Below, piece by piece: positions 1,469-29,501 of a stretch of DNA of 64,000 nucleotides. Every line of letters starts with the position of its first letter. Position 1 is the stretch's first letter. The position numbers were made by a program, and so were the translations under genes. The stretch comes from Massilia polaris (lineage in GTDB: Bacteria > Pseudomonadota > Gammaproteobacteria > Burkholderiales > Burkholderiaceae_D), in the NCBI RefSeq assembly GCF_012927275.1, contig NZ_JABBGG010000003.1, forward strand, positions 248,001 to 312,000, written 5' to 3'. The notes beneath the pieces were generated by a model. It did not search any database, was not told where the DNA came from, and saw only the letters and a list, made by a program, of their open reading frames with translations.

Positions 1469-2464
1469 ATGGCTCGCAGTTTATGGAAAGGCGCCATCAG
1501 CTTCGGGCTGGTGCACATCCCTGTCGAGATGTACCCGGCAGTGCAGAACCACACGCTGGACCTGACCATGCTCGACCGCCGCGACTTTTCCCCGGTCGGC
1601 TTCAAGCGCTACAACAAGAACAACCAGAAGGAAGTGAGCTGGGACGACATCGTCAAGGGCTATGAATACGCCAGCGGCGAGTACGTGGTGCTGTCGGACG
1701 AAGACCTGCGGCGCGCCAATCCCGAAGCCACGGGCACCATCGACATCCTGGCGTTCGTCGACGCCGGGCAGGTGCCGCTGCTGTTTTACGAACAGCCCTA
1801 CTACCTCGCGCCCGGCAAAGGCGGCGACAAGGTGTACGCGCTGCTGCGCGAAACGCTGCGCAAGGCTGGCAAGGTCGGCATCGCGCGCGTCGTCATCCGC
1901 GTCAAGCAGCACCTTGCAGCGCTGGTGTGCGTGGGCGACACCATTGTGCTGAACACGCTGCGCTACGCCGACGAAATCCGTGAGGCCGGCGAACTGAAGA
2001 TACCGGCATCGGACGCCAAGGCGGCCCAGCTGTCGGACAAGGAACTGAAAATGGCGATGGCGCTGGTCGAGGGCATGAGCGAGGAATGGCGTCCCGAGGA
2101 ATACCACGACACCTACCGCGAGGATGTGATGGCGCTGGTGGAGAAGAAAGTCGCCGCCAACGAAACCAAGGCCATCACCATGCCGGGCAAGGAGAAGGCT
2201 GCGCCGTCGTCGGGCAACGTGATCGACCTGGTCGCGCTGCTGCAGCAAAGTATCGGCAAGAAGCCGGGCAAGGCGGCGGCGAACGACGACGACGAGGAAA
2301 AAGAGGAGGAAGCAGCGCCAGCGCCGAAGACGCGCAAGGCGCCGGCCAAGTCTGCCTCCAAAACCGCTGCCAAGGCGGCTCCGCGCACGGCAGCCGCGAA
2401 ACCCAGGACCAGAGCCGCGCCCGCGGCCAAGGCAGCCGCACCGGCACGCCGGAAGTCTGCATAA
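1469..2464 (+). CDS. ku: Non-homologous end-joining DNA-binding protein Ku
   Basis: A 331-residue bacterial Ku beginning MARSLWKGAISFGLVHIPVE, the typical start of the family. Ku homodimers form a ring on broken double-strand ends and recruit LigD. The Ku core covers about residues 1-255. The last 75 or so residues are a Lys/Ala/Pro-rich low-complexity tail with an acidic patch, like the basic C-terminal extensions that bind DNA and help dimers thread inwards in other bacterial Ku proteins. The open frame extends upstream to 1247 inside the dehydrogenase gene, but the conserved start and an AAAGGA element (1458-1463) fix ATG 1469. LigD lies 1.5 kb away on the opposite strand, making a complete two-component end-joining system. 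Confidence 0.95.
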   Translation: MARSLWKGAISFGLVHIPVEMYPAVQNHTLDLTMLDRRDFSPVGFKRYNKNNQKEVSWDDIVKGYEYASGEYVVLSDEDLRRANPEATGTIDILAFVDAGQVPLLFYEQPYYLAPGKGGDKVYALLRETLRKAGKVGIARVVIRVKQHLAALVCVGDTIVLNTLRYADEIREAGELKIPASDAKAAQLSDKELKMAMALVEGMSEEWRPEEYHDTYREDVMALVEKKVAANETKAITMPGKEKAAPSSGNVIDLVALLQQSIGKKPGKAAANDDDEEKEEEAAPAPKTRKAPAKSASKTAAKAAPRTAAAKPRTRAAPAAKAAAPARRKSA

Positions 2465-2850: not shown

Positions 2851-3798
2851 TCATCGCGGATCGCGCCGCAGCGGACGCACGGAGCCGACCCGATCCCGCA
2901 GCCCATAGGAGTCCAGGTCGGGAGCGTTCCGGTCCAGCGTGACGCAGCGGCCGGCGAAGTTACTGCCTTCGCACAGCTCCCACTCCCCGCCTTCAATGGC
3001 TGCACTCTGCGCACGACTGCCATTTTCCGATAGATATTCCACCGCCCCCCTGAAAGTCGTGGCGGCTCCGCGATAGTCGGGCCGGTCGAACAGGACAAGC
3101 GACGTGTCGCCGCCTGACGGAGGAACGGGACGGGCGCGGGGGACCGGTCGCAGCGATGCTACACGCCCGCGCAAATTATGGACGCGGAGATCGGGCACGC
3201 TGTTGTTCAGGATGATGCACCGCCCCCGGTAGTTGGGGCGCTCGCAGAGCTCCCACACGCCTCGACCGATGGTCACGCTCTGCACACGCCGGGCGACATT
3301 CGGGACCGGCCCCTTGAAGTTGGACGGGCGGCCGCGGTAATTGGGTTGATCGAACAGAACAATGTACCAACCGCGCTGCGACCCTGCTCCGGGACCGTAG
3401 CCAGGAACATAAGGAGGAGCAGTTCCGGCGTCGGGAGGGAGGTATTCATCGCCAACCCGTCGTGCCGACGAAATCGTATCGTTCCAGGAACCCCGCTGCA
3501 GATCGCGTTCCTCGCCGGCAACGACAACACAGCGCCCCCTGTAAAACGCATCCTCGCACACTTCCCATCGCTCGCCGGGCTCCACCCTCAAGCTGGAAAT
3601 CGTGTCGTTGATACCGGACCGCCTCAGGTCGGGCTCGTCTTGACGGAAGGTTGCAATTGCGCCGCGAAAATTGACGTCGGTATAGACCGTTAGCCCCACG
3701 CCTCCTATCTCGCGTTGCTCCTGGGAAAAGCTCGGCACCGTTGTGCTTATGGCGACTAGTGCGAGCAGGGAATAGACAATCGAACTGATGGTTCTCAT
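2851..3798 (-). CDS. Secreted protein with three beta/gamma-crystallin domains
   Basis: A 315-residue protein with a Sec signal peptide (MRTISSIVYSLLALVAISTT, cleavage probably after about 26). Six Greek-key motifs follow, arranged as three two-motif domains at about 32-120, 140-225 and 230-312. The repeated elements are of the forms FYRGRC, NYRGR and WELCE, then an RVxSLRP-type end. The paired Cys in each domain (for example ELCERPNYRGRC) probably form disulfides, which fits an exported protein. Bacterial beta/gamma-crystallins often bind calcium, but I see only loose (D/N)(D/N)xS-like loops such as NDTISS. The ATG at 3798 is preferred over the upstream 3906 because it follows an AGAGGAGAA site and starts a clean signal peptide. 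It sits between ku and ligD; a link to repair is not implied. Confidence 0.8.
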   Translation of the reverse strand: MRTISSIVYSLLALVAISTTVPSFSQEQREIGGVGLTVYTDVNFRGAIATFRQDEPDLRRSGINDTISSLRVEPGERWEVCEDAFYRGRCVVVAGEERDLQRGSWNDTISSARRVGDEYLPPDAGTAPPYVPGYGPGAGSQRGWYIVLFDQPNYRGRPSNFKGPVPNVARRVQSVTIGRGVWELCERPNYRGRCIILNNSVPDLRVHNLRGRVASLRPVPRARPVPPSGGDTSLVLFDRPDYRGAATTFRGAVEYLSENGSRAQSAAIEGGEWELCEGSNFAGRCVTLDRNAPDLDSYGLRDRVGSVRPLRRDPR

Positions 3799-3915
3799 CG
3801 TTGTTCTCCTCTTGTTCTCTTGCTTGTTTTCCTTACGGTACAACAGGATCAGTTTGGCACAAAACCGGTGATTGTCCAGTTCTGTCCACGGGGCCGGAAA
3901 GGGCATCCTGGAGGT

Positions 3916-6447
3916 CTACTCAGTTACTTTGTACCCCATTTTTTTCATTGCCGCAGCCAGCGTTTTAGCACTCTTCGCATACGCGGCCCACGGCTCATTG
4001 CCGCGATCGAGCCTGGTGTGCGCGTTGTGCACGTTCCACTGGTCGCCGGCCTTGACCACACTCAACTCATCCCACGCCAGCGGCACCGAGATGCCCAGTC
4101 CCGGACGCACCCGCGCCGACCAGGCACACGCCGTCGTCGCTCCGCGTCCGTTGCGCAAATAGTCGATGAATATCTTGCCAACCCGGTTGCGCGGCCCGCT
4201 CTTGAACGCGAACCGGTCCGGCAACGTCATCGCCATGTGCTGCACGATCGCTTGCGAATAGTCCTTGACCGTGTCCCAGTCATACCCGCCCTTGATCGGC
4301 ACCACCACGTGCAGGCCTTTGCCGCCGCTGGTCTTGAGGAAGCCGGGCAGCCCGAGCTCGTCGAGGAAGGCGCGCATCAGTTGCGCGGCTTCCTGCATCG
4401 TCGGCCATTCCACGCCCTCGCCTGGGTCAAGGTCGAACACCATGCGGTTCGGCGTTTCATATGCCCTGCCGGTCGCGTTCTGCGTGTGGAACTCAACCAC
4501 GTTCCATTGCGCGGCCGAGAGTATCCCCCGGGCGCTGCCGACTTCCAGCATCGGCGGGTGGTCCGGGTCGAGCGCCTGGTCCATCTGCTTCATGCCGGGA
4601 AGCTTGCCGACTTCGGCGTGCTTCTGGAAAAACAGCTCCCCGCCCACGCCAGCAGGCGCCCGCACCAGCGATACCGGCCTGCCCTTCAGGTGCTCCATCA
4701 TCAGCGCACCCACCAGCGCGTAGTAGCGCACCAGTTCAATCTTGGTGGTGCCGCTTTGCGCGTCGATCACGCGGTCTGGATTGGTCACCTTGAGGCTGGC
4801 CGGCAGCTTGCCGGCCGGCGCCACCGGTTCAGTCGATTTCGATTGTGCGGCCATGGAGTCCTCCAGGTGTCTGGCTGTTTCGCGTTTGATCCCTTTGGCC
4901 GGCTTGTCGTCACGCAGGCCCTGGAAGACGGCGTGACGTACCGATCCGGTCCTGGTCCATTCGGCGAAACTCACTTCCGCGATCAGTTTGGGCTTGACCC
5001 AGTGCGGCTTGCGCCCGGCCACCGCTTTGGGCGGGAACGGACTCTTGTCCGTGTCGAGTGCTGCCAGCTGTTTCTTCAGCTCGCGCAAGGTCGCTTCATT
5101 GAAGCCGCTGCCTACATTGCCGGCGTACTGCAGCACGCCGTCCTTGTCGTACACGCCAAGCAGCAGCGAGCCGATACCGGTGCGCGAGCCTTGCGGGTCG
5201 GTGTAGCCGCCGACGACGAATTCCTGCCGCTGGCCGCATTTGAGCTTGATCCATTCGGGCGAGCGCCGTTCGACATAACGCGAGTCGCGCCGTTTGCCGA
5301 TAACGCCTTCCAGGCCCATCTTGCAAGCGGCGATGACCAGCTCCTGCGGATCGTTTCCGAATTCGGCGCTGAAGCGCACCATGTCGGAGGGCGCTTTCTC
5401 CAGCAGGGACTGCAGCATCGCGCGCCGCGCTTCCAGCGGCACTGCGCGCATGTCGTAGCTGTTGCAATATGGCGCATCAAACACGAAGTAAACGATTTCC
5501 GCCGTATTGGAACCGTCGAACGCCAGATGCAGCATGCCGAAGTTCGGTTTGCCGTTTTCGTCGTGGACGACGATCTCGCCGTCGTACCAGCCGTCGGGAA
5601 GCGTCATCGCGGCCAGCCCTTTCTGCAGGGTCGGCAGCTTGTGGGTCCAGTCGTGTCCATTCCGCGTAAACAGCCTGACCTGCTTTCCTTCCACGCGCGC
5701 CAGCAGCCGGTAGCCGTCGAACTTGATCTCGAATATCCAGTCTTCGGGCGTAGATGGAGGGCTGTCAACCAGCGTCGCCAGCTCGGGCGACAGCATGGAA
5801 GGCAGTGCGGCCTTGACCGCTTCAGGCTGCGCCTTTCCACGCGCGGGCTTTGCCGCCGTCGCCGGCCTTACTTTCGCCTTGCCGGCGCCGGGCATCGTCA
5901 GCGCCTTGACGCTGTCGGGCATTTCGTCGACCACCGAGAACTCCGTCGCCGGCCGCGCGTAGTCGTCCTTCTCCTTGATCAGCAACCAGGGCTCCTGTTT
6001 TTCACCCTTGCCCTTCATCCGAACCAGCACCCATTTGCCGTGCATTTTATGGCCATGGATTTCGAACTTGAGGTTGCCGCTTTCGTAGCCTTCATGCGGA
6101 TCGCCGAGCGGCTCCCACGTGCCCTTGTCCCAGATGATGACCTTGCCGGCGCCGTACTGCTTCTCAGGGATGGTGCCTTCGAAGTCCGAGTACGAGATCG
6201 GATGATCTTCGACGTGGACCGCCATCCGCTTGTCCTTGGTGTCGTAACTCGGGCCTTTGGGAACGGCCCAGCTTTTCATGGTGCCGTCCAGTTCCAGGCG
6301 GAAATCGTAGTGCAGGCGGCTTGCCCAGTGTTTCTGGATCACGAAGGTGAGCTTCCCCACCGCCACGTTGCCGCCCGCGGCAGGTTCCGACGTGATCGCG
6401 AAGTTGCGTTTGGCTTTGTACACCTTGAGCGGATCGGCGGTTGCCAT
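3916..6447 (-). CDS. ligD: Multifunctional ATP-dependent DNA ligase LigD (phosphoesterase-ligase-polymerase)
   Basis: An 843-residue enzyme with all three end-joining activities in the Pseudomonas-type order. The 3'-phosphoesterase domain is at about 10-165, with metal ligands His40, His46, Asp48 and His82 spaced exactly as in Pseudomonas LigD. The ligase nucleotidyltransferase and OB domains follow at about 215-525, with motif I EIKFDGYR and adenylated Lys242. The primase-polymerase domain is at about 548-843, with the catalytic pair Asp672/Asp674 in FDLDPG. Lys/Ala-rich linkers separate the domains. LigD trims, fills and seals double-strand breaks recruited by Ku. It converges with the ku transcript, with a crystallin-type gene between, and probably has its own promoter upstream of 6447. 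Confidence 0.95.
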   Translation of the reverse strand: MATADPLKVYKAKRNFAITSEPAAGGNVAVGKLTFVIQKHWASRLHYDFRLELDGTMKSWAVPKGPSYDTKDKRMAVHVEDHPISYSDFEGTIPEKQYGAGKVIIWDKGTWEPLGDPHEGYESGNLKFEIHGHKMHGKWVLVRMKGKGEKQEPWLLIKEKDDYARPATEFSVVDEMPDSVKALTMPGAGKAKVRPATAAKPARGKAQPEAVKAALPSMLSPELATLVDSPPSTPEDWIFEIKFDGYRLLARVEGKQVRLFTRNGHDWTHKLPTLQKGLAAMTLPDGWYDGEIVVHDENGKPNFGMLHLAFDGSNTAEIVYFVFDAPYCNSYDMRAVPLEARRAMLQSLLEKAPSDMVRFSAEFGNDPQELVIAACKMGLEGVIGKRRDSRYVERRSPEWIKLKCGQRQEFVVGGYTDPQGSRTGIGSLLLGVYDKDGVLQYAGNVGSGFNEATLRELKKQLAALDTDKSPFPPKAVAGRKPHWVKPKLIAEVSFAEWTRTGSVRHAVFQGLRDDKPAKGIKRETARHLEDSMAAQSKSTEPVAPAGKLPASLKVTNPDRVIDAQSGTTKIELVRYYALVGALMMEHLKGRPVSLVRAPAGVGGELFFQKHAEVGKLPGMKQMDQALDPDHPPMLEVGSARGILSAAQWNVVEFHTQNATGRAYETPNRMVFDLDPGEGVEWPTMQEAAQLMRAFLDELGLPGFLKTSGGKGLHVVVPIKGGYDWDTVKDYSQAIVQHMAMTLPDRFAFKSGPRNRVGKIFIDYLRNGRGATTACAWSARVRPGLGISVPLAWDELSVVKAGDQWNVHNAHTRLDRGNEPWAAYAKSAKTLAAAMKKMGYKVTE

Positions 6448-18450: not shown

Positions 18451-19518
18451 ATGATGATCCCGACCGAGCCCATCGGCAGCATTCCACGCCCGCCAGAACT
18501 CGTTGCCGCGCTCAAGGCCGGCGATGTCGGCGGCGAACAGCTCGAACACCTGTACGAAGAGGCGGTGCGCGATACCGTGCTGCGCTTCGGGGCGACCGGT
18601 TCGCCGGTGATCACCGATGGCGAGCAGCGCAAGTTCCATAATTTCTGGACCTACCCGGTGCATGGCGCCAGCAATACCGAACCCGACGGTTTCCAGATTC
18701 CGTTCGCCGCCGGCCACATCCGCCGCATGCCGCGGCTGGCGCGCGCGCCGTTCCGCTACCAGCGCTATGCCGACGACTTCCTGGCGATGGCGCAGCGCTT
18801 CGCCAGCGTGCCGGTCAAGCAGGCGGTGATCTCGCCGTCGGCGCTGTCGCTGATGTATCCGCCCGAAGGCCTGCCCGGCTACTCGCGCGACCAGTTCCTG
18901 GCCGACCTGCTCGCTGAGCATGAAACCGAAATCCGCCGCTGCCTCGCGCGTGGCGCCTGGAAGGTGCAGGTCGACTTGACCGAAGGCCGGCTGGCCGTCA
19001 AGCTCGACCCGAGCGGCGGCCTGCTGACCAGCTTCATCGACCTCAACAACCTGGCGCTGGGCCGCTTCAGCGATGCCGAGCGCCAGCGGATCGGCGTGCA
19101 CACCTGCCCCGGCGCCGACCGCGATTCGCCCCACAGCCAGGATGTCGATTACGCCGACCTGCTGCCCAGCCTGTTCAACCTGAAGGCCGGCAACTTCTAC
19201 GTCGCGTTGGCCGGCGAGCCCGATCGGGTGCGCGTACTGAAGCTCATCCGCCAGAACATGAAGCCAGGCCAGCGCGTGTTTGTCGGCGTCACCGCGCCGA
19301 TCGACCCGGCCATCGAGACGCCCGAACTGGTACGCGATCGCGTGCTGCAGGCGGCCGAATACCTCCCGCTGGACCAGCTCGGCACCACCGACGACTGCGG
19401 CTTCGCACCGTTCTGCGACGACCTGTCGACCACCCGCGACACCGCCTTTGCCAAGATCCGCGCGCGGGTCGAAGGCACCGCGCTGGCCGCCGCCATCCTG
19501 GAAGGACGCACGCAGTGA
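18451..19518 (+). CDS. MetE C-terminal-like cobalamin-independent methyltransferase
   Basis: A 355-residue protein similar to the C-terminal catalytic barrel of cobalamin-independent methionine synthase, as in the stand-alone MetE-like/YxjG group. It shows the start PTEPIGSIPRP, the DGEQRKF segment, the zinc-binding GVHTCPG pair (His and Cys) and a late Cys in TDDCGFAPFCDD. It has only one barrel against about 750 residues for full MetE, so it probably transfers methyl groups between small molecules, with homocysteine as likely acceptor (family inference). Its stop overlaps the GTG start of the next gene, a large hybrid kinase: an unusual enzyme-sensor pairing. Confidence 0.78.
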   Translation: MMIPTEPIGSIPRPPELVAALKAGDVGGEQLEHLYEEAVRDTVLRFGATGSPVITDGEQRKFHNFWTYPVHGASNTEPDGFQIPFAAGHIRRMPRLARAPFRYQRYADDFLAMAQRFASVPVKQAVISPSALSLMYPPEGLPGYSRDQFLADLLAEHETEIRRCLARGAWKVQVDLTEGRLAVKLDPSGGLLTSFIDLNNLALGRFSDAERQRIGVHTCPGADRDSPHSQDVDYADLLPSLFNLKAGNFYVALAGEPDRVRVLKLIRQNMKPGQRVFVGVTAPIDPAIETPELVRDRVLQAAEYLPLDQLGTTDDCGFAPFCDDLSTTRDTAFAKIRARVEGTALAAAILEGRTQ

Positions 19519-22505
19519 GCGCGGACGGCGACGACGAACTCGAACAGATGCGTTCGGTCGCGATGCAGAACGCCAGCAGCGTGCTGCACGCGCGCCAGCG
19601 CGCCGAGCAGGAGCTGATCGAGGCCAAGGGCGCGCTGCGCGCCGCCAACGACCGCATGGAACGCATGCTGGAAAGCCTGACCGACGGTTTCTGCGCGGTC
19701 GGGCGCGACTGGCGCATCAGCTACATCAACGCGCGCGCACTGCAGCTGCTGGGGCCGCTCGACAAGACGCGCGACACCCTGGTCGGCCAGGTGATTTGGG
19801 AAGCCTTCCCCGAGCTGCAGGGCAGCGCGCTCGACAAGCAATGCCGGCGCGCGATGGCGACCCACCGCACCCAGGCCTTTGAATATTACTACCCGCAGCT
19901 GCGCACCTGGTTCGACCTGCGCGCCTACCCATCGCCGGACGGCCTGACGGTGTACTTCCAGGACATCACGCGGCGCAAGGCCGACGAACAGGCCCTCAAG
20001 GACGGCAACAGCCGCCTGCAGGTGGCGCTCGCCGCCGGGCGCCTGGGCGACTGGCGCTGGGATGCGACCACCAACACGGTCAGCTTCGGCCAGCGCGCCG
20101 CCGACATTTTTTCGCTGCCGCCGAAAATCCCGCTCGACATGGCGCAGGTGGTCGCCCGCGTCAACCGAGAGGACCGCGCCAAGACCCGAGCGGCACTGCT
20201 GGGCGCGTTCTCCCAGCAGCGCGACCTCGACATTGAATTCCGCCTCGGCGCCGGCCCCGGCCAGCGCTGGATCGCCGCCGTCGGCCGGGTCGACCTCGAC
20301 AAGGTCAACGGCGTGCTCGGCATGGTCGGCGTGGTGCACGACATCAGCACCCGCAAGAGCGCCGAGGACGCGCTGCGCCAGAGCGAGGAAATGATGCGCG
20401 CGCTGGCCAACTCGATTCCCCAGCTGGCCTGGATGGCCGAACAGAACGGCGCGATCGTCTGGTTCAACGAGCGCTGGTACGACTACACCGGAACCACCCC
20501 GGAGCAGATGGTCGGATGGGGCTGGCAATCGGTGCACGACCCGGACGTGCTGCCCCAGGTCCTGCAGCGCTGGAACGAGTCGATCGCCACCGGCAAGCCG
20601 TTCGACATGGAATTCCCGATCCGCGGCGCCGACGGCGAGTATCGCTGGTTCCTGACCCGGGTCAACGCCGTGCGCGACCGCGACGGCAAGGTGCTCAGCT
20701 GGTTCGGCACCAACACCGACGTCGACCAGGTCAAGCGGGTCGAGCAGGCGCTGCGCGAGGAATCGAACGTGCTCGAACTGCTCAACAGCACGGGCGCCGC
20801 CCTCGCCTCCCAGCGCGACCTGCGCTCGCTGTTGCAGACCGTCACCGACGCCGCCACCGGGGTCAGCGGCGCGCGCTTCGGCGCCTTCTTCTACCACGGC
20901 AAGGACGCCGACGGCGACCTGTTCACCCTGTACGCGCTGGCCGGCGCCACCCCCGACGAGTTCGAGCGCTTCGGCTATCCGCGCGCCACGCCGCTGTTCG
21001 GACCCAGCCTGCGCGGCGAGGGCGTGGTGCGCTCCGACGACATCACGCGCGACCCGCGCTATGGCGCCAACAGCCCGCACTTCGGGGTGCCGGAAGGCCA
21101 TCCATCGGTGCGCAGCTACCTGGCCGTGCCGGTCATCGCGCGCAGCGGCGAGGTGCTCGGCAGCATGTTCTTCGGCCATCCCGAGCCGGGCATCTTCACC
21201 GAACGCACCGAGCGCATCGTCGGCGGCATCGCGGCCCAGGCCGCCGTGGCGATCGACAACACCCGCCTGTACGAAGCGGCCCGCCATGCCGCCGAAGAGC
21301 GCAAGGTGCTGCTGGAGAGCGAACGCTCGGCGCGTGCCGAGGCCGAACGCACCAGCCAGATGAAGGATGAATTCCTGGCCACCCTGTCGCACGAACTGCG
21401 CACCCCGCTGTCGGCGATCCTGGGCTGGGCCCAGGTGCTGCGGCGCGGCTCACGCAACGCTGAAGACCTGCAGCGCGGCCTGCAGACCATCGAACGCAAC
21501 GCGCGCGCCCAGGCCCAGCTGATCGAGGACCTGCTCGACATGAGCCGCATCACCTCGGGCAAGGTGCTGCTCGACATGCAGGCGGTGCACCCGTCGGTGT
21601 TCATCGACGCGGCCATCGAAACGGTGCGCCCGGCCGCCGACGCCAAGAACATCCGGCTGGAAAAAGACTACCACCCCGATGCCGGCCTCATCGCCGGCGA
21701 CCCGGGCCGGCTGCAGCAGGTGATCTGGAACCTGCTGTCGAACGCCATCAAGTTCACCCCGCGCGACGGCCTGGTGCGGATCGAGGTGACGCCGGCCGAC
21801 GGCCATATCGAGATCAGCGTGGCCGACACCGGCGCCGGCATCCAGCCGGAATTTATCAGCCATGTGTTCGAACGGTTCCGCCAGGCCGACGCCTCGACCA
21901 CCCGCCGCCACGGCGGCCTCGGGCTCGGGCTGGCGATCGTCAAGCACCTGATCGAGCAGCATGGCGGCACCGTCGGCGTCGACAGCGAAGGGGAGGACCA
22001 CGGCGCGCGCTTCACGATCCGGCTGCCGGCCGCCGCGCTGCAGCCGGCGCCGGCGCGCGCCGACCGCGTCGCCTTCAGCCCGCTGCCGCCGCACACGCCG
22101 GAGCTCCTGCTGCGCGATCTGTCGGGGGTTCATGTGCTGGTCGTCGACGACGAACCTGACGCGCGCGACCTGATCAGGCGTATATTGTCGGATTGCAATG
22201 CCAGTGTCGCGACCGCGGGCAGCGCCAGCGCCGCGCTGGCGGCCTTCCGCGAGACCCGGCCGGACGTGCTGGTGACCGACCTGGGCATGCCGGACGTGGA
22301 TGGCTTTGAACTGCTGGCACGGGTGCGGTCGCTCGGCCCGGCCGCGGGCGGCGACCTGCCGGCGATCGCCCTGACCGCCTTCGCCCGCTCGGAAGACCGG
22401 ATCAGGGCGCTGGAGTCCGGATTCCGGGCGCATATCGCCAAACCGGTCGAGCCAAGCGAGCTGATTGCGATCGTCGCATCGATCGTCGCGCGCCGGCCCG
22501 GCTGA
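19515..22505 (+). CDS. Soluble hybrid histidine kinase (PAS-PAS-PAS-GAF-HisKA-HATPase-REC)
   Basis: A 996-residue cytoplasmic hybrid kinase starting at a GTG that overlaps the MetE-like stop. Three PAS domains span about 40-150, 165-285 and 290-410. A GAF domain follows at 420-590, with the pattern GVVRSDDITRDPRYG common in light- or ligand-sensing kinases. HisKA comes next (FLATLSHELRTPLSAILGWA, His in SHELRTP), then an HATPase with NAIKFTPRDG and GLGLGLAIV, and a C-terminal receiver with Asp in LVTDLGMPDVDG. No membrane segment is visible. Together with the PAS-receiver protein at 17482 it could form a phosphorelay. The ligand is unknown. Confidence 0.87.
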   Translation: MSADGDDELEQMRSVAMQNASSVLHARQRAEQELIEAKGALRAANDRMERMLESLTDGFCAVGRDWRISYINARALQLLGPLDKTRDTLVGQVIWEAFPELQGSALDKQCRRAMATHRTQAFEYYYPQLRTWFDLRAYPSPDGLTVYFQDITRRKADEQALKDGNSRLQVALAAGRLGDWRWDATTNTVSFGQRAADIFSLPPKIPLDMAQVVARVNREDRAKTRAALLGAFSQQRDLDIEFRLGAGPGQRWIAAVGRVDLDKVNGVLGMVGVVHDISTRKSAEDALRQSEEMMRALANSIPQLAWMAEQNGAIVWFNERWYDYTGTTPEQMVGWGWQSVHDPDVLPQVLQRWNESIATGKPFDMEFPIRGADGEYRWFLTRVNAVRDRDGKVLSWFGTNTDVDQVKRVEQALREESNVLELLNSTGAALASQRDLRSLLQTVTDAATGVSGARFGAFFYHGKDADGDLFTLYALAGATPDEFERFGYPRATPLFGPSLRGEGVVRSDDITRDPRYGANSPHFGVPEGHPSVRSYLAVPVIARSGEVLGSMFFGHPEPGIFTERTERIVGGIAAQAAVAIDNTRLYEAARHAAEERKVLLESERSARAEAERTSQMKDEFLATLSHELRTPLSAILGWAQVLRRGSRNAEDLQRGLQTIERNARAQAQLIEDLLDMSRITSGKVLLDMQAVHPSVFIDAAIETVRPAADAKNIRLEKDYHPDAGLIAGDPGRLQQVIWNLLSNAIKFTPRDGLVRIEVTPADGHIEISVADTGAGIQPEFISHVFERFRQADASTTRRHGGLGLGLAIVKHLIEQHGGTVGVDSEGEDHGARFTIRLPAAALQPAPARADRVAFSPLPPHTPELLLRDLSGVHVLVVDDEPDARDLIRRILSDCNASVATAGSASAALAAFRETRPDVLVTDLGMPDVDGFELLARVRSLGPAAGGDLPAIALTAFARSEDRIRALESGFRAHIAKPVEPSELIAIVASIVARRPG

Positions 22506-22654
22506 CCCGTAAGAACACTATTCAGGCTCCTACCGCGACACGCGGCGCTGTCCTACAAGAAAGTTTCGACCATTTGCTACACTACGTGAGCTGTGGAACC
22601 TGATGTTCCCGTAGTGCCACCGCCGCCGGTTTGGGGCTTTTACCGAGATCACGC

Positions 22655-23638
22655 ATGCCGAGCCGCGACGACATTCTTAACGCCAAAATACTGGTAGTTG
22701 ACGATTCTTCAGACAATATCGAATTGATGGAAGAGATATTGCGCGAGGAAGGATATACCGGCGTCAGCTCGACCATGCTCCCGGAACAGGTGTGCCCGCT
22801 GCACCGCCAGCACAACTACGACATCATCCTGCTCGACCTGCAAATGCCGGGACTGAACGGCTTCCAGGTCATGAAAGGCCTGAAGGAAATCGAGAAAGGC
22901 GGCTACCTGCCGGTACTCGCCCTCACCGCCCAGCCGAGTTTCAAGATCGCCGCCCTGGAAGCGGGCGCGCGCGACTTCATCAGCAAGCCGTTCGACCTGC
23001 TCGAAGTGCACAAGCGCATCCACAACATGCTGGAAGTACGCCTGCTGTACAAGGAGTTGGCCCAATACAGCAAGACCCAGCAGGAACTGGCGCTGCATGA
23101 CGCGCTGACCGGGCTGCCTAACCGCCGCCTGCTGGAAGACCGCATCGAAACCACCCTCCAGCACGCCAGCCGCAACCATCACAAGGCGGCCATCATGTAC
23201 CTGGACCTCGATGGCTTCAAGGCGATCAACGATACTTATGGCCACGCCTACGGCGATGAAGTGCTGAAGATCGTCGCCCAGCGCCTGCTGGCCACGTCGC
23301 GCAAGGAAGACACGGTCGCGCGCCTCGGCGGCGACGAATTCATGGTCGTGCTGGGTGAAGTCAACGGCCTGGCCGACGCCCAGGGACCGGCGGCCAAGCT
23401 GGTCGAGGCGGTGTCCGAGCCGTTCTTCATCAACGACCTGACCCTGCGCCTGTCGACCAGTATCGGCATCAGCATCTATCCGGACGACGCCGAATCGGTC
23501 GAAGCGCTGATCAGCATCGCCGATTACGCGCTGTACGAAGCCAAGCGTGGCGGCAAGAACCGCTTCTGCGCCACCTCCGCCTCCCCGGCCCAGATGGTGC
23601 CGCCCTCAAAGCTTGAACTGGTTCCGCTCAGCCGTTAA
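22655..23638 (+). CDS. Receiver-GGDEF diguanylate cyclase (PleD/WspR-like)
   Basis: A 327-residue response regulator. The receiver domain (about 8-125) has Asp in IILLDLQMPGLNG. The GGDEF domain (about 160-318) has an intact active site, ARLGGDEFMVVLGE. Five residues before GGDEF stands RKED, an RxxD inhibitory site, so product feedback is expected. It makes cyclic di-GMP when phosphorylated, probably by one of the neighbouring kinases. ATG 22655 is preferred to the upstream TTG at 22631 since domain residues begin right after it, although neither has a strong ribosome binding site. The tail YEAKRGGKNRF is partly duplicated just downstream at 23717. Confidence 0.88.
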   Translation: MPSRDDILNAKILVVDDSSDNIELMEEILREEGYTGVSSTMLPEQVCPLHRQHNYDIILLDLQMPGLNGFQVMKGLKEIEKGGYLPVLALTAQPSFKIAALEAGARDFISKPFDLLEVHKRIHNMLEVRLLYKELAQYSKTQQELALHDALTGLPNRRLLEDRIETTLQHASRNHHKAAIMYLDLDGFKAINDTYGHAYGDEVLKIVAQRLLATSRKEDTVARLGGDEFMVVLGEVNGLADAQGPAAKLVEAVSEPFFINDLTLRLSTSIGISIYPDDAESVEALISIADYALYEAKRGGKNRFCATSASPAQMVPPSKLELVPLSR

Positions 23639-23708
23639 GGCGGAACCTGAGGTACCTTAGGGCGGCAGCAGCGCTGCGTCCGCCGCGGCCATGACTGCAT
23701 GCCCAGCC

Positions 23709-23770
23709 CATGCCGAGCACGAAGCCAAGCGCGGCGGCCAGAACCGTTTCGGCGCCACTTCCGCAGGGTT
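23709..23770 (+). pseudogene. Remnant of a duplicated GGDEF-domain tail
   Basis: In the plus frame this reads HEAKRGGQNRFGATSAG, closely matching YEAKRGGKNRFCATSAS at the end of the cyclase about 180 bp upstream, and the bases also match. It is a relic of a second GGDEF gene end or a partial tandem duplication, with no start, no domain before it, and a frame that runs into unrelated sequence. Confidence 0.6.
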
Positions 23771-23779
23771 CGCAGATAT

Positions 23780-23806
23780 AAAAAAAGGCTGCCAGTTTGC
23801 AGCCTT
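23780..23806 (-). terminator. Intrinsic terminator for the minus-strand small Cys protein
   Basis: Read on the minus strand, AAGGCTGC / GCAGCCTT with a short loop is followed by seven T. It lies 18 bp after the stop of the gene at 23824. Confidence 0.85.
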
Positions 23807-23823
23807 CATTACGTCAGAACATA

Positions 23824-24548
<725 letters not shown>

Positions 24549-26171
24549 GTGCCCAAAATAGAGAAACCCAAGGTCCTGGTTGTCAATGACGACGCGGCCA
24601 GTCTCCTTGCACTGACAAGCTTGCTTGATCAATGGGCTGAAGAATCGAATTACGAGGTCCTGGGCGCGCGTTCCGGGCAGGACGCCCTGCGCCAAGTGCT
24701 GCTGCACGATTTCGCGGTGATTCTGCTGGACGTGAACATGCCCGGCATGGACGGGTTTGAAACCGCCGAGGCGATCCACCAGCGCGCGCGCTCGGCCGAC
24801 ATCCCGATCATCTTCGTCACCGCTTTCCTGGCCGACGAGATCGACCGCCTCAAGGCCTACCAGCGCGGCGCGGCCGACTTCATGTTCACCCCGGTAATCC
24901 CGCAGATCCGCGTTCCTCGATTTCGCGCGTCAGGCGTTTGTTGGTCGCGGTCAGCTCGGTGGTGCGCTGCGACAGCTTATGGGCCTGGCGGCGCAGTTCT
25001 TCGTTCTTGGTGGCCAGGGTGACGAACACCTGCACCTTGGCGACGCCAGGCGGCCGAGCGCAAGAGCCACGCCAAGGACGAATTCCTGGCGATGCTGGGC
25101 CATGAACTGCGCAACCCGCTGTCGGCCATCAGCAGCGCCGCCTCGCTGATCGGGCTGGCCGGCGCCGGCCCCGACACGGTCGGGCGCGCCAAAATGATCA
25201 TCCAGCGCCAGAGCCAGCACTTGTCGCGCATCGTCGACGACCTGCTCGACCTGTCGCGCGCGATGTCGGGCAAGATCCTGCTGGCGCGCCAGGCGACCGA
25301 CGTGTCGACGCTGGTCGGCGCGTGCCTGGAGACCTTCCGCGCCACCGGCCGCACCGGAAACTATTCGCTCAACGTCAACCTGGCCCCGTGCTGGGTCGAC
25401 GGCGATCCTACCCGGCTCGAGCAGATCGCCAGCAACCTGATCGACAACGCGCTCAAATACACGCCGCCCGGCGGCACCATCGGCATCCTGATCGCCGAAG
25501 ACGGCGACGAGGTCGTGCTGACCGTCAGCGACTCGGGCGTCGGCATCTCGCCGGAACTGCTGCCGCACGTGTTCGACGTGTTCGTGCAGGGCGCCATCAC
25601 GATCGACCGCGCCCAGGGCGGCCTTGGCATCGGCCTGGCGCTGGTGCGGCGGCTGGTCGAACTGCACGGCGGCAGCGTCAGCGCGCGCAGCGACGGCGCT
25701 GCGGCCGGCAGCACCTTCGAGATCCGCCTGCCGCGCGCGCTGCCGCTCCAGCTTGCGCAAGACGGCCTGGATCGCGCCGCCCCGGCCGGCAAGCCAACCG
25801 TGCTGCTCATCGAGGATAACGACGACGGCCGCGAAATGATGGCCACCATGCTCGACGCCTACGGTTACGCGGTCAGCTATGCCGCCGATGGCGTGCAGGG
25901 CGTGGAAATGGCATCCAACAATGCGCCGGACGTCGCCCTGGTCGACATCGGCCTGCCCGGCATCGACGGTTACGAAGTAGCGCGCCGCCTGCGCATGGAC
26001 CCCGCCACCCGCGGCGTGAAATTGATCGCCCTGACCGGTTACGGCCTGGCCGAAGACCAGCGCCGCGTGCTGGAAGCCGGCTTTGACCTGCACCTGGTCA
26101 AGCCGGTCGGCATCGACCAGCTGCTCGAAGCCATCGGCAGCTGGGACCCGCTGGCGGCTGCGGCCAAATAA
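24549..26171 (+). pseudogene. Receiver-HisKA-HATPase-receiver kinase gene broken by an internal inversion
   Basis: The first part starts at GTG 24549 after GCAGGA and encodes a receiver (KPKVLVVNDDAASLLALTSL, with Asp in VILLDVNMPGMDG) up to FMFTPVIPQI at 24908. It then runs into foreign residues and stops at 25022. The second part resumes in the same frame at about 25050 with AAERKSHAKDEFLAMLGHEL (HisKA), an HATPase, and a final receiver (Asp in ALVDIGLPGIDG) ending at 26171. The missing linker is present between them on the opposite strand. Flipping 24909-25047 restores one stop-free frame of about 540 codons. As it stands, only a lone receiver is made, plus perhaps a kinase fragment from ATG 25092. 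Confidence 0.85.
24909..25047 (-). other. Inverted linker segment inside the receiver-kinase gene
   Basis: On the minus strand this reads VAKVQVFVTLATKNEELRRQ, then AHKLSQRTTELTATNKRLTR and EIEER. This is a coiled-coil linker of the type that normally joins FMFTPVIPQI to the HisKA segment KSHAKDEFLAML in this kinase class. Boundaries are approximate (a few bases either side). I see no long flanking inverted repeats, only GC-rich microhomology. Confidence 0.85.
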
Positions 26172-26251
26172 GGCGGTTGCGGCCGGGCCGCGGCTGGCGC
26201 CGGGGCGGCGCCAGCTGTTGTATGATTTTTGAAACTTTCACAGGGCGACCG

Positions 26252-27034
26252 ATGACAGCACCGTCAACACACACCTCCGGCAGCCAGGCCGAGCGTTCGC
26301 TGGCCGAGCCTGGTCTGGCCGAGCCTGACCTGGCCGGACGCAATGGCGACCTGGCGGAGCTGCTTGGCCACCTGACGACCTGCTGGGATGACGAGCGCCG
26401 CCTGCTGGCGCGCAAGCTGCACGACAACCTTGGCTCGTCGATGACGGCGCTGACGATGCACCTGGCGCTGCTGGCGCAGCAGCTGCCGGCCGAGAAGGCG
26501 CTGCAGGACCGCGCCGCCCAGATGAAGCAGCTGCTGGCCGACATCATCAACACCAACCGCGACATGCAGCTGGCCCTGTGGAACGACAAGCTGGAGTTCC
26601 TCGGCATCAAGGCCGCACTGCGCGAGCTGGTCGCCGAATTCAACGCCGCACAGGGCATCGCCGCGCGTATCAGCCTGCCCGACGAAGACCCGAGCTATAC
26701 CCGTGAACAAGGGGTCGCGCTGCTGCGCTGCGTCGAGGAAGGGCTGCGCAATATCGCCGCCCACGCCGGCGCGACCGAAGTCGATGTGATTTTGGATGAC
26801 AACGGCGAGGAAGTGATGCTGACCGTGCGCGACAACGGCGTCGGCCCGGGCGCCGCCGACCGCGCCGGGGCGGCCGGCTGCCACGGCCTGCGCCTGCTGC
26901 GTGAACGCGCCGCCTGGCTCGGCGGCGAGCTGCGCCTGGCCGCCGCCGAAGGCAAGGGTTCGCTGCTCACCGTGGTCCTGCCGAAGCAGGTCGCGCCACT
27001 CAGTGGAGCTTCACCAGCGGCGTCGAGCGTTTGA
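26252..27034 (+). CDS. NarL-class sensor histidine kinase (HisKA_3-like), soluble
   Basis: A 260-residue kinase without membrane segments. The phospho-acceptor block is LLARKLHDNLGSSMTALTMH, typical of dimerisation domains in the NarX/DegS class, followed by a compact HATPase with EGLRNIAAHAGAT (N-box), DNGVGPG and HGLRLLRERAAWLGG. ATG 26252 is chosen since CAGGGCGACCG precedes it and the residues before carry no domain. No LuxR-type regulator is adjacent, so its partner is elsewhere. The last 35 bp overlap the convergent NADH dehydrogenase gene, so the two transcripts are antisense there. It follows the broken kinase gene by 80 bp and may share its promoter. Confidence 0.8.
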   Translation: MTAPSTHTSGSQAERSLAEPGLAEPDLAGRNGDLAELLGHLTTCWDDERRLLARKLHDNLGSSMTALTMHLALLAQQLPAEKALQDRAAQMKQLLADIINTNRDMQLALWNDKLEFLGIKAALRELVAEFNAAQGIAARISLPDEDPSYTREQGVALLRCVEEGLRNIAAHAGATEVDVILDDNGEEVMLTVRDNGVGPGAADRAGAAGCHGLRLLRERAAWLGGELRLAAAEGKGSLLTVVLPKQVAPLSGASPAASSV

Positions 27035-28362: not shown

Positions 28363-28821
28363 TCAGTGCTTGTCCTTGCCGTGGTGCTTGTCCTTGCCGT
28401 GGTGCTTGTCCTTGCCATGGCCGTTGTCGTGGTCGCGGCCATGGTCGTCACGGTCGCGGCGGCCGTCGCCACGGTGGGACTCGCGGTACACCACGGTTTC
28501 GCGTACGCGCGGTGCGTAGCTGTTGGCGTACCAGTCGTCGCGCACGAACAGCACGCGCTGGCCGCAGGCGTCATATTTGCGGCAGTGCTTCGCCCAGTTC
28601 TTGCGGTGGCCTGGCGGCACGCGCAGGTAGACCGGGTCGGCGCGGTAGCGCGCTTCGCGTTCGATGATCACGGGCTGGGTGACATACACGCGGGGACGAA
28701 GGTCGACGCTGTCGATGCGTCCGTAGAAGCCCGGATCGCCGATGCTGATGTTGACGTCGATCTGGGCCAGTGCCGGTACGGCGGCCGCGCACAGGGTGGC
28801 GGCGATGAGCAGTTTTTTCAT
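28363..28821 (-). CDS. Secreted protein with His/Lys/Asp-rich repeat tail (paralog 1)
   Basis: A 152-residue protein with a signal peptide (MKKLLIAATLCAAAVPALAQ, cut after about Ala19). A conserved core of about 100 residues follows, with DVNISIGDPGFYGRID, PVYLRVPPGHRKNWAKHCRK, YDACG and VLFVRDDWYANSYAPRVR; two Cys could pair. The tail is a low-complexity D/H/G/K run ending in three GKDKHH-type repeats, likely to bind divalent metals or polyanions (inference). The same core is in the gene at 28947, so they are tandem paralogs. Family: small periplasmic proteins common in Oxalobacteraceae; no function known to me. Confidence 0.75.
   Translation of the reverse strand: MKKLLIAATLCAAAVPALAQIDVNISIGDPGFYGRIDSVDLRPRVYVTQPVIIEREARYRADPVYLRVPPGHRKNWAKHCRKYDACGQRVLFVRDDWYANSYAPRVRETVVYRESHRGDGRRDRDDHGRDHDNGHGKDKHHGKDKHHGKDKH
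28366..28419. repeat. Three tandem copies of an 18-bp repeat
   Basis: The unit GTGCTTGTCCTTGCCGTG occurs three times in line (28366-28383, 28384-28401, 28402-28419, the last with one change). It encodes the GKDKHH repeats of the minus-strand protein and may vary in number by slippage without shifting frame. Confidence 0.9.
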
Positions 28822-28946: not shown

Positions 28947-29501
28947 TCAGTCGCGGTCACGTCCGTGGCCGCGGCCATGGCCCTTGTCGTGGTGCTTGTC
29001 ATGGTGCTTGCCCTTGCCGTGATCGCGGTCGTTGCGGTCATGGCGGTCGTCGCGGTCACGGCGGCCGTGGTGGTGGTCGCGGTCGCGGTACACCACTTTC
29101 TGCACTACATAAGGCCGCGGCGCATCGCGGTAGACCACGTGTTCGACGACCGGACGCGGACGGTCGCGGTAGACCTTGCGCACACGCGGGGCATAGGTGT
29201 CGGAATACCAGTCATCGCGCACGAACAGCACCGGCACGCCGCAGGCGTCATAACGGTTGCACCACTGGCGCCAGTGCCGGCGGTGCTTCAGCGGTGCGCG
29301 CACGTAGACCGGCTCCTGGTGGTAGCGCACGCGCTCGATGATGACCGGCTGGTGGATGTACACCGGCGGTGGCGCGTAGCCGCGGTTGTCGATCATGCCG
29401 AAGAAGCCAGGGTCGCCGATGTTGATGCTGACGCGGGTTTCGGCGAAGGCCGGAGCGGCGGCTGCAGCCAACAGTGCTGCGCCAATCAGGAATTTCTTCA
29501 T
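28947..29501 (-). CDS. Secreted protein with His/Asp/Arg-rich tail (paralog 2)
   Basis: A 184-residue paralog of the protein at 28363. It has a signal peptide (MKKFLIGAALLAAAAAPAFA), a shared core (RVSINIGDPGFFGMID, HQPVIIERV, YVRAPLKHRRHWRQWCNRYD, VLFVRDDWYSDTYAPRVRK), an extra middle section with repeated VVYRD and RPRPV elements, and a long D/H/R/K-rich tail of about 50 residues. Core identity is around half by eye. The 125-bp gap between the two genes could allow one transcript. The tail resembles metal- or polyphosphate-binding low-complexity segments; the function is unknown. Confidence 0.75.
   Translation of the reverse strand: MKKFLIGAALLAAAAAPAFAETRVSINIGDPGFFGMIDNRGYAPPPVYIHQPVIIERVRYHQEPVYVRAPLKHRRHWRQWCNRYDACGVPVLFVRDDWYSDTYAPRVRKVYRDRPRPVVEHVVYRDAPRPYVVQKVVYRDRDHHHGRRDRDDRHDRNDRDHGKGKHHDKHHDKGHGRGHGRDRD

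Follow-up and report, generated by a model that had tools for sequence, protein, structure and literature searches.

An in-place inversion of the linker in a hybrid histidine kinase gene of Massilia polaris, probably a one-off microinversion

Examination of a 64,000-nucleotide stretch of the Massilia polaris genome (contig NZ_JABBGG010000003.1, positions 248,001 to 312,000; hereafter the window) revealed a hybrid histidine kinase gene at 24549-26171, with the architecture REC-linker-HisKA-HATPase-REC, in which the linker lies on the wrong strand. A real, one-off microinversion produced by end joining or by template switch is, in our judgement, the probable explanation; a conserved gene would then have been knocked out by a single, recent and lossy event of 133 bp. 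That the cellular DNA of the strain really carries the inversion, as well as the route by which it arose, we infer from the deposited sequence and its comparison with relatives.

An earlier note on this DNA had proposed that the linker is inverted in place within a receiver-kinase gene, and this reading held. Positions 24910-25042 match the opposite strand of the related genome G003 with 92% identity (E 2.4e-48). Compared with the locus of Massilia agrisoli MAHUQ-52 (L038), the nearest named relative, the segment agrees at 122 of 133 bases when inverted vs 31 of 133 when read forward, a match which is far beyond chance. The extent given in the note, 139 bp (24909-25047), was correct as to the inversion and incorrect as to its limits, the actual segment being 133 bp long (Table 1). 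Translated from the minus strand, 24910-25044 gives a linker of 45 residues, which reads VAKVQVFVTLATKNEELRRQAHKLSQRTTELTATNKRLTREIEER and, judged by reading, looks like a coiled coil.

All Pfam domains of a four-domain hybrid kinase are present in the window, and the inversion cuts the frame that should join them. The remainder of the kinase gene is intact, as the note had also stated: 25050-26168 is an open frame, and no decay is visible elsewhere in the gene. Downstream of the TGA that closes the receiver frame, the first in-frame ATG lies at 25092, within HisKA and just ahead of the histidine of the HELRNP stretch, presumably the phosphate acceptor. The predicted product is a lone receiver of 157 residues, including a foreign tail of 37 residues, with no coupled kinase; a restart at the ATG would probably yield an inactive kinase devoid of the linker and of the HisKA start. 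The domain order is that of hybrid histidine kinases with N- and C-terminal receivers. Unlike in those proteins, the linker is inverted here, so that receiver and kinase are not co-translated, whereas the relatives keep one frame, as established by placing receiver, linker and kinase in each of them (the Pfam run covered the window only).

The gene stands in a run of signalling genes (19515-27034 of the window) composed of a PAS-GAF hybrid kinase, a receiver-GGDEF gene, the broken hybrid kinase and a HisKA_3-type kinase. Further along, two adjacent open frames on the minus strand (28363-28821 and 28947-29501) start alike (MKKLLI... and MKKFLI...) and have tails with many His, Lys, Asp and Gly residues; judged by reading, they resemble exported proteins encoded in tandem.

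Table 1. Features of the broken kinase gene and end-joining genes in the window (positions are those of the window).
Feature	Position	Strand	Remarks
Ku domain	1499-2053	+	in frame 1247-2464
LigD	3916-6447	-	phosphoesterase, ligase and polymerase domains
N-terminal receiver domain (REC)	24549-24908	+	GTG start at 24549; Pfam PF00072, E 2.7e-20
Left joint	between 24909 and 24910	.	4 bp of the relatives (TGCG in the three nearest) absent
Inverted segment	24910-25042	-	linker-encoding; 133 bp
TGA stop ending the receiver frame	25020-25022	+	within the inverted segment
ACGC	25043-25046	+	second copy at 24910-24913 (GCGT); right joint at 25042/25043
HisKA, HATPase_c and C-terminal receiver	25050-26171	+	Pfam PF00512, E 7e-16; PF02518, E 3.9e-29; PF00072, E 3e-22

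Comparison with relatives indicates which order is the usual one. The linker is in the strand and frame of the kinase in all 96 relative loci that allowed receiver, linker and kinase to be located, and the window copy (L001) is the sole locus with the linker on the opposite strand. The earlier note had considered that the inverted order might be a stable state shared by orthologues; it was observed in none of the 96. Receiver and kinase lie equally far apart in the window and in every one of these loci, and the 133-bp segment matches each of them better inverted than forward, the weakest case being 86 vs 36. The set consists of 16 loci from a search of 60 relatives and 80 from the best 80 of 148 named relatives; the two groups overlap in genomes, and the 96 loci represent at least 80 but fewer than 96 genomes. 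Besides these 96 and the window's own copy, the comparison of 117 loci took in 20 that were omitted, either lacking a linker match or failing the kinase filter. One of these, L017, belongs to genome G006, in which the DNA matches are in the normal order. In the same-genus genome G013, which is 81% complete, a close match to the kinase gene was not found (best E 1.4e-42).

In M. agrisoli, the kinase is 92% and the receiver (24549-24908) 98% identical to those of the window, and the linker is identical at 44 of 44 residues, this 100% identity covering residues 2-45. Genome G003 has a joint sequence identical to that of M. agrisoli, and one of its contigs is collinear with most of the window, the order being broken by gaps and by the inverted segment. 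A paralog as the source of the inverted piece was rejected, the 44 residues matching the linker of the orthologue in L038. Among the kinase loci L002-L008 of the strain's own genome, five (L002, L004, L005, L006 and L008) have no linker match near the kinase.

The joints are not clean. The three nearest relatives read ATCC TGCG CGCCAAGG ... ACGC CAGG, and the window reads ATCC GCGTTCC ... CCTTGGCG ACGCCAGG. Judged against these three relatives rather than against the strain's own ancestor, the window lacks 4 bp at the left joint and carries 4 bp twice at the right one, which leaves the spacing between receiver and kinase unchanged; the match between a 4-bp loss and a 4-bp gain may be a coincidence. 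In the same comparison, no base is common to both sides of either joint. No Ns occur at either of them. The segment is an in-place reverse complement between collinear flanks and, confined to a single lineage, it resembles the microinversions and template-switch mutations treated in PMC8755829 and PMC7954356, both of which deal with primate genomes. The definite microinversions of PMC8755829 are 17-33 nt long and flanked by inverted repeats; the present one differs from them in being 133 bp long, bacterial and without such repeats, and in having lost 4 bp and gained 4.

The earlier note had also raised the idea of an on/off switch, that is, a reversible, recombinase-driven inversion within the gene that uncouples the receiver from its kinase. 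Several observations could be read in this way: the genome contains family matches to serine recombinases (4) and tyrosine recombinases (10, of which 9 are over the cut-off), a switch would be expected to show a recent flip without decay, and the segment lies between the arms of an exact 11-bp inverted repeat (24788-24798 and 25051-25061). The left arm of this repeat, however, stops 111 bp short of the left joint, so that the pair would flip a larger piece. Among the 25 longest of 37 inverted pairs, the others are imperfect, shorter or off the two joints. The note was right that long inverted repeats are absent: the longest exact inverted repeat between the sequences close to the two joints measures 6 bp. 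By contrast, invertons carry flanking inverted repeats of 10-40 nt according to PMC11892184, and no such repeats occur at the two ends of the segment. Arms of 10-26 bp at the joints were scored against 1000 random placements of two points separated by 133 bp within the window, on the present sequence and not the ancestral one; between 768 and 949 of these placements reached the observed score, the figure for the best 10-bp arms being 949. No link was found between the serine and tyrosine recombinase matches and the inversion site.

The joints themselves also argue against a switch. Loss and duplication of 4 bp relative to the three nearest relatives are not what conservative, reversible joints would leave. 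At the left joint, the residue after PQ[I/V/M] is leucine in all 96 relatives; its codon is partly lost in the window, so that a simple flip back would not, on this reading of the bases, restore the usual protein. Intragenic invertons, reportedly described by Chanin et al. in Nature in 2024, are said to be inversions of coding sequence that alter or truncate the protein. The present case shares with them its position within coding sequence and differs in its joints, which are lossy and without fitting inverted repeats. The inverted state was found in none of the relative loci. A reversible switch is not supported, and we regard it as very improbable. Equally far-fetched in our estimation is a recombination independent of long inverted repeats which would flip the linker in part of the population and give a free receiver beside a silent kinase.

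The substitutions in the gene bear on the age of the event. Relative to M. agrisoli, the linker has dN 0 and dS 0.43, with 11 codons that differ synonymously, the receiver dN 0.011 and dS 0.46, and the kinase dN 0.048 and dS 0.39. Over the three pieces, 28 synonymous and 8 nonsynonymous changes fall on the branch of the window and 37 and 7 on that of M. agrisoli; M. soli and M. cavernae served as the outgroups, and a site was counted only if the two agreed. Nonsynonymous changes thus make up 8/36 on the branch of the window vs 7/44 on the other, a slightly higher share which is too small a difference to be taken as decay. Branch counts and dN/dS figures together point to a kinase gene constrained through most of the divergence. 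An old pseudogene was rejected on the low dN and the branch counts. The identity of the linker at 44 of 44 residues despite 11 synonymous codons, with no clear excess of amino-acid changes, indicates that the flip is recent, and the suggestion of a recent event made in the earlier note is thereby borne out.

A recent and unique change is also what a library or assembly error would look like. The strain would then have the normal order, and the deposited sequence would contain a chimeric or misplaced short piece. The absence of gene decay agrees with such an artefact, as does the fact that the case comes from a single draft assembly of 30 contigs and is unique both against the 96 relative loci and in some 400 kb of scanned DNA. 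That scan set contig 23 of the strain (387 kb) and 200 kb of its contig 1 against two contigs of G003, of which 400 kb and 198 kb were used, and tested 26,777 windows of 40 bases near collinear blocks (16,955 + 9,822). Besides the present locus, a single weak window, on contig 1 near 570506, favoured the reverse complement (score 17 vs 8). This second candidate was rejected as a microinversion: the place (about 10506 in L175) is a GC-rich, perfect 12-bp hairpin, which mimics an inversion in such a scan. The joints tell against an artefact. Exact repeats of at least 7 bp linking their near flanks in inverted order are absent, which would leave an overlap-based assembler with little to misjoin on; the sequence has no Ns there; and a chimeric read would need to outnumber the normal ones. 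We consider an artefact unlikely, though clearly less so than a switch.

A real microinversion remains the preferred reading, and two routes to it can be proposed. In bacterial end joining, Ku and LigD seal breaks at joints with little or no homology and with small losses or fill-ins. Both proteins are encoded in the window (Table 1), which makes this route possible, and the joints are of the low-homology kind with small losses and fill-ins, a feature which is not specific to end joining. The two genes, a bacterial end-joining set, face each other, with an open frame (2851-3906, minus strand) between them. A search of 10 further genomes of the genus detected Ku in all 10, which is evidence of end-joining capacity only. 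In the proposed sequence of events, two staggered breaks would release a short fragment, which would turn round before Ku/LigD end joining sealed the joints; if the overhangs were filled in at one end and trimmed back at the other, 4 bp would be doubled and 4 bp lost.

The other route is a double template switch at one fork, in which the polymerase would leave after 24909, copy 133 nt of the other strand and return at 25043. It fits the joints almost as well as end joining does. The geometry of the joints agrees with it, and the four-point model of short-range template switching yields a reverse-complement patch of this kind in PMC7954356, where local template switches are also said to be seen in both eukaryotic and prokaryotic replication. 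The segment is nevertheless long beside the 17-33 nt of the definite, invariably repeat-flanked microinversions in PMC8755829, and neither joint shares a base. A short construct combining the ancestral flanks of both joints showed no folding advantage over shuffled sequences (z 0.45), and neither did a hairpin with a 5-bp stem in the ancestral left joint. Template switching is the main rival of end joining and less likely than not, its likelihood being part of that of a real microinversion rather than additional to it. With no base common to the joints, we lean slightly to end joining.

If confirmed, the locus would provide a cleanly resolved example, in a bacterium, of a microinversion that exceeds 100 bp and lacks fitting repeats at its flanks. 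Although no claim to a first description is made for its size, it would be a useful case on the question of end joining versus template switching as a source of such changes. If the inversion is real, the strain would also be without a kinase that its relatives have kept, which would be relevant to those who use it as the reference of the species.
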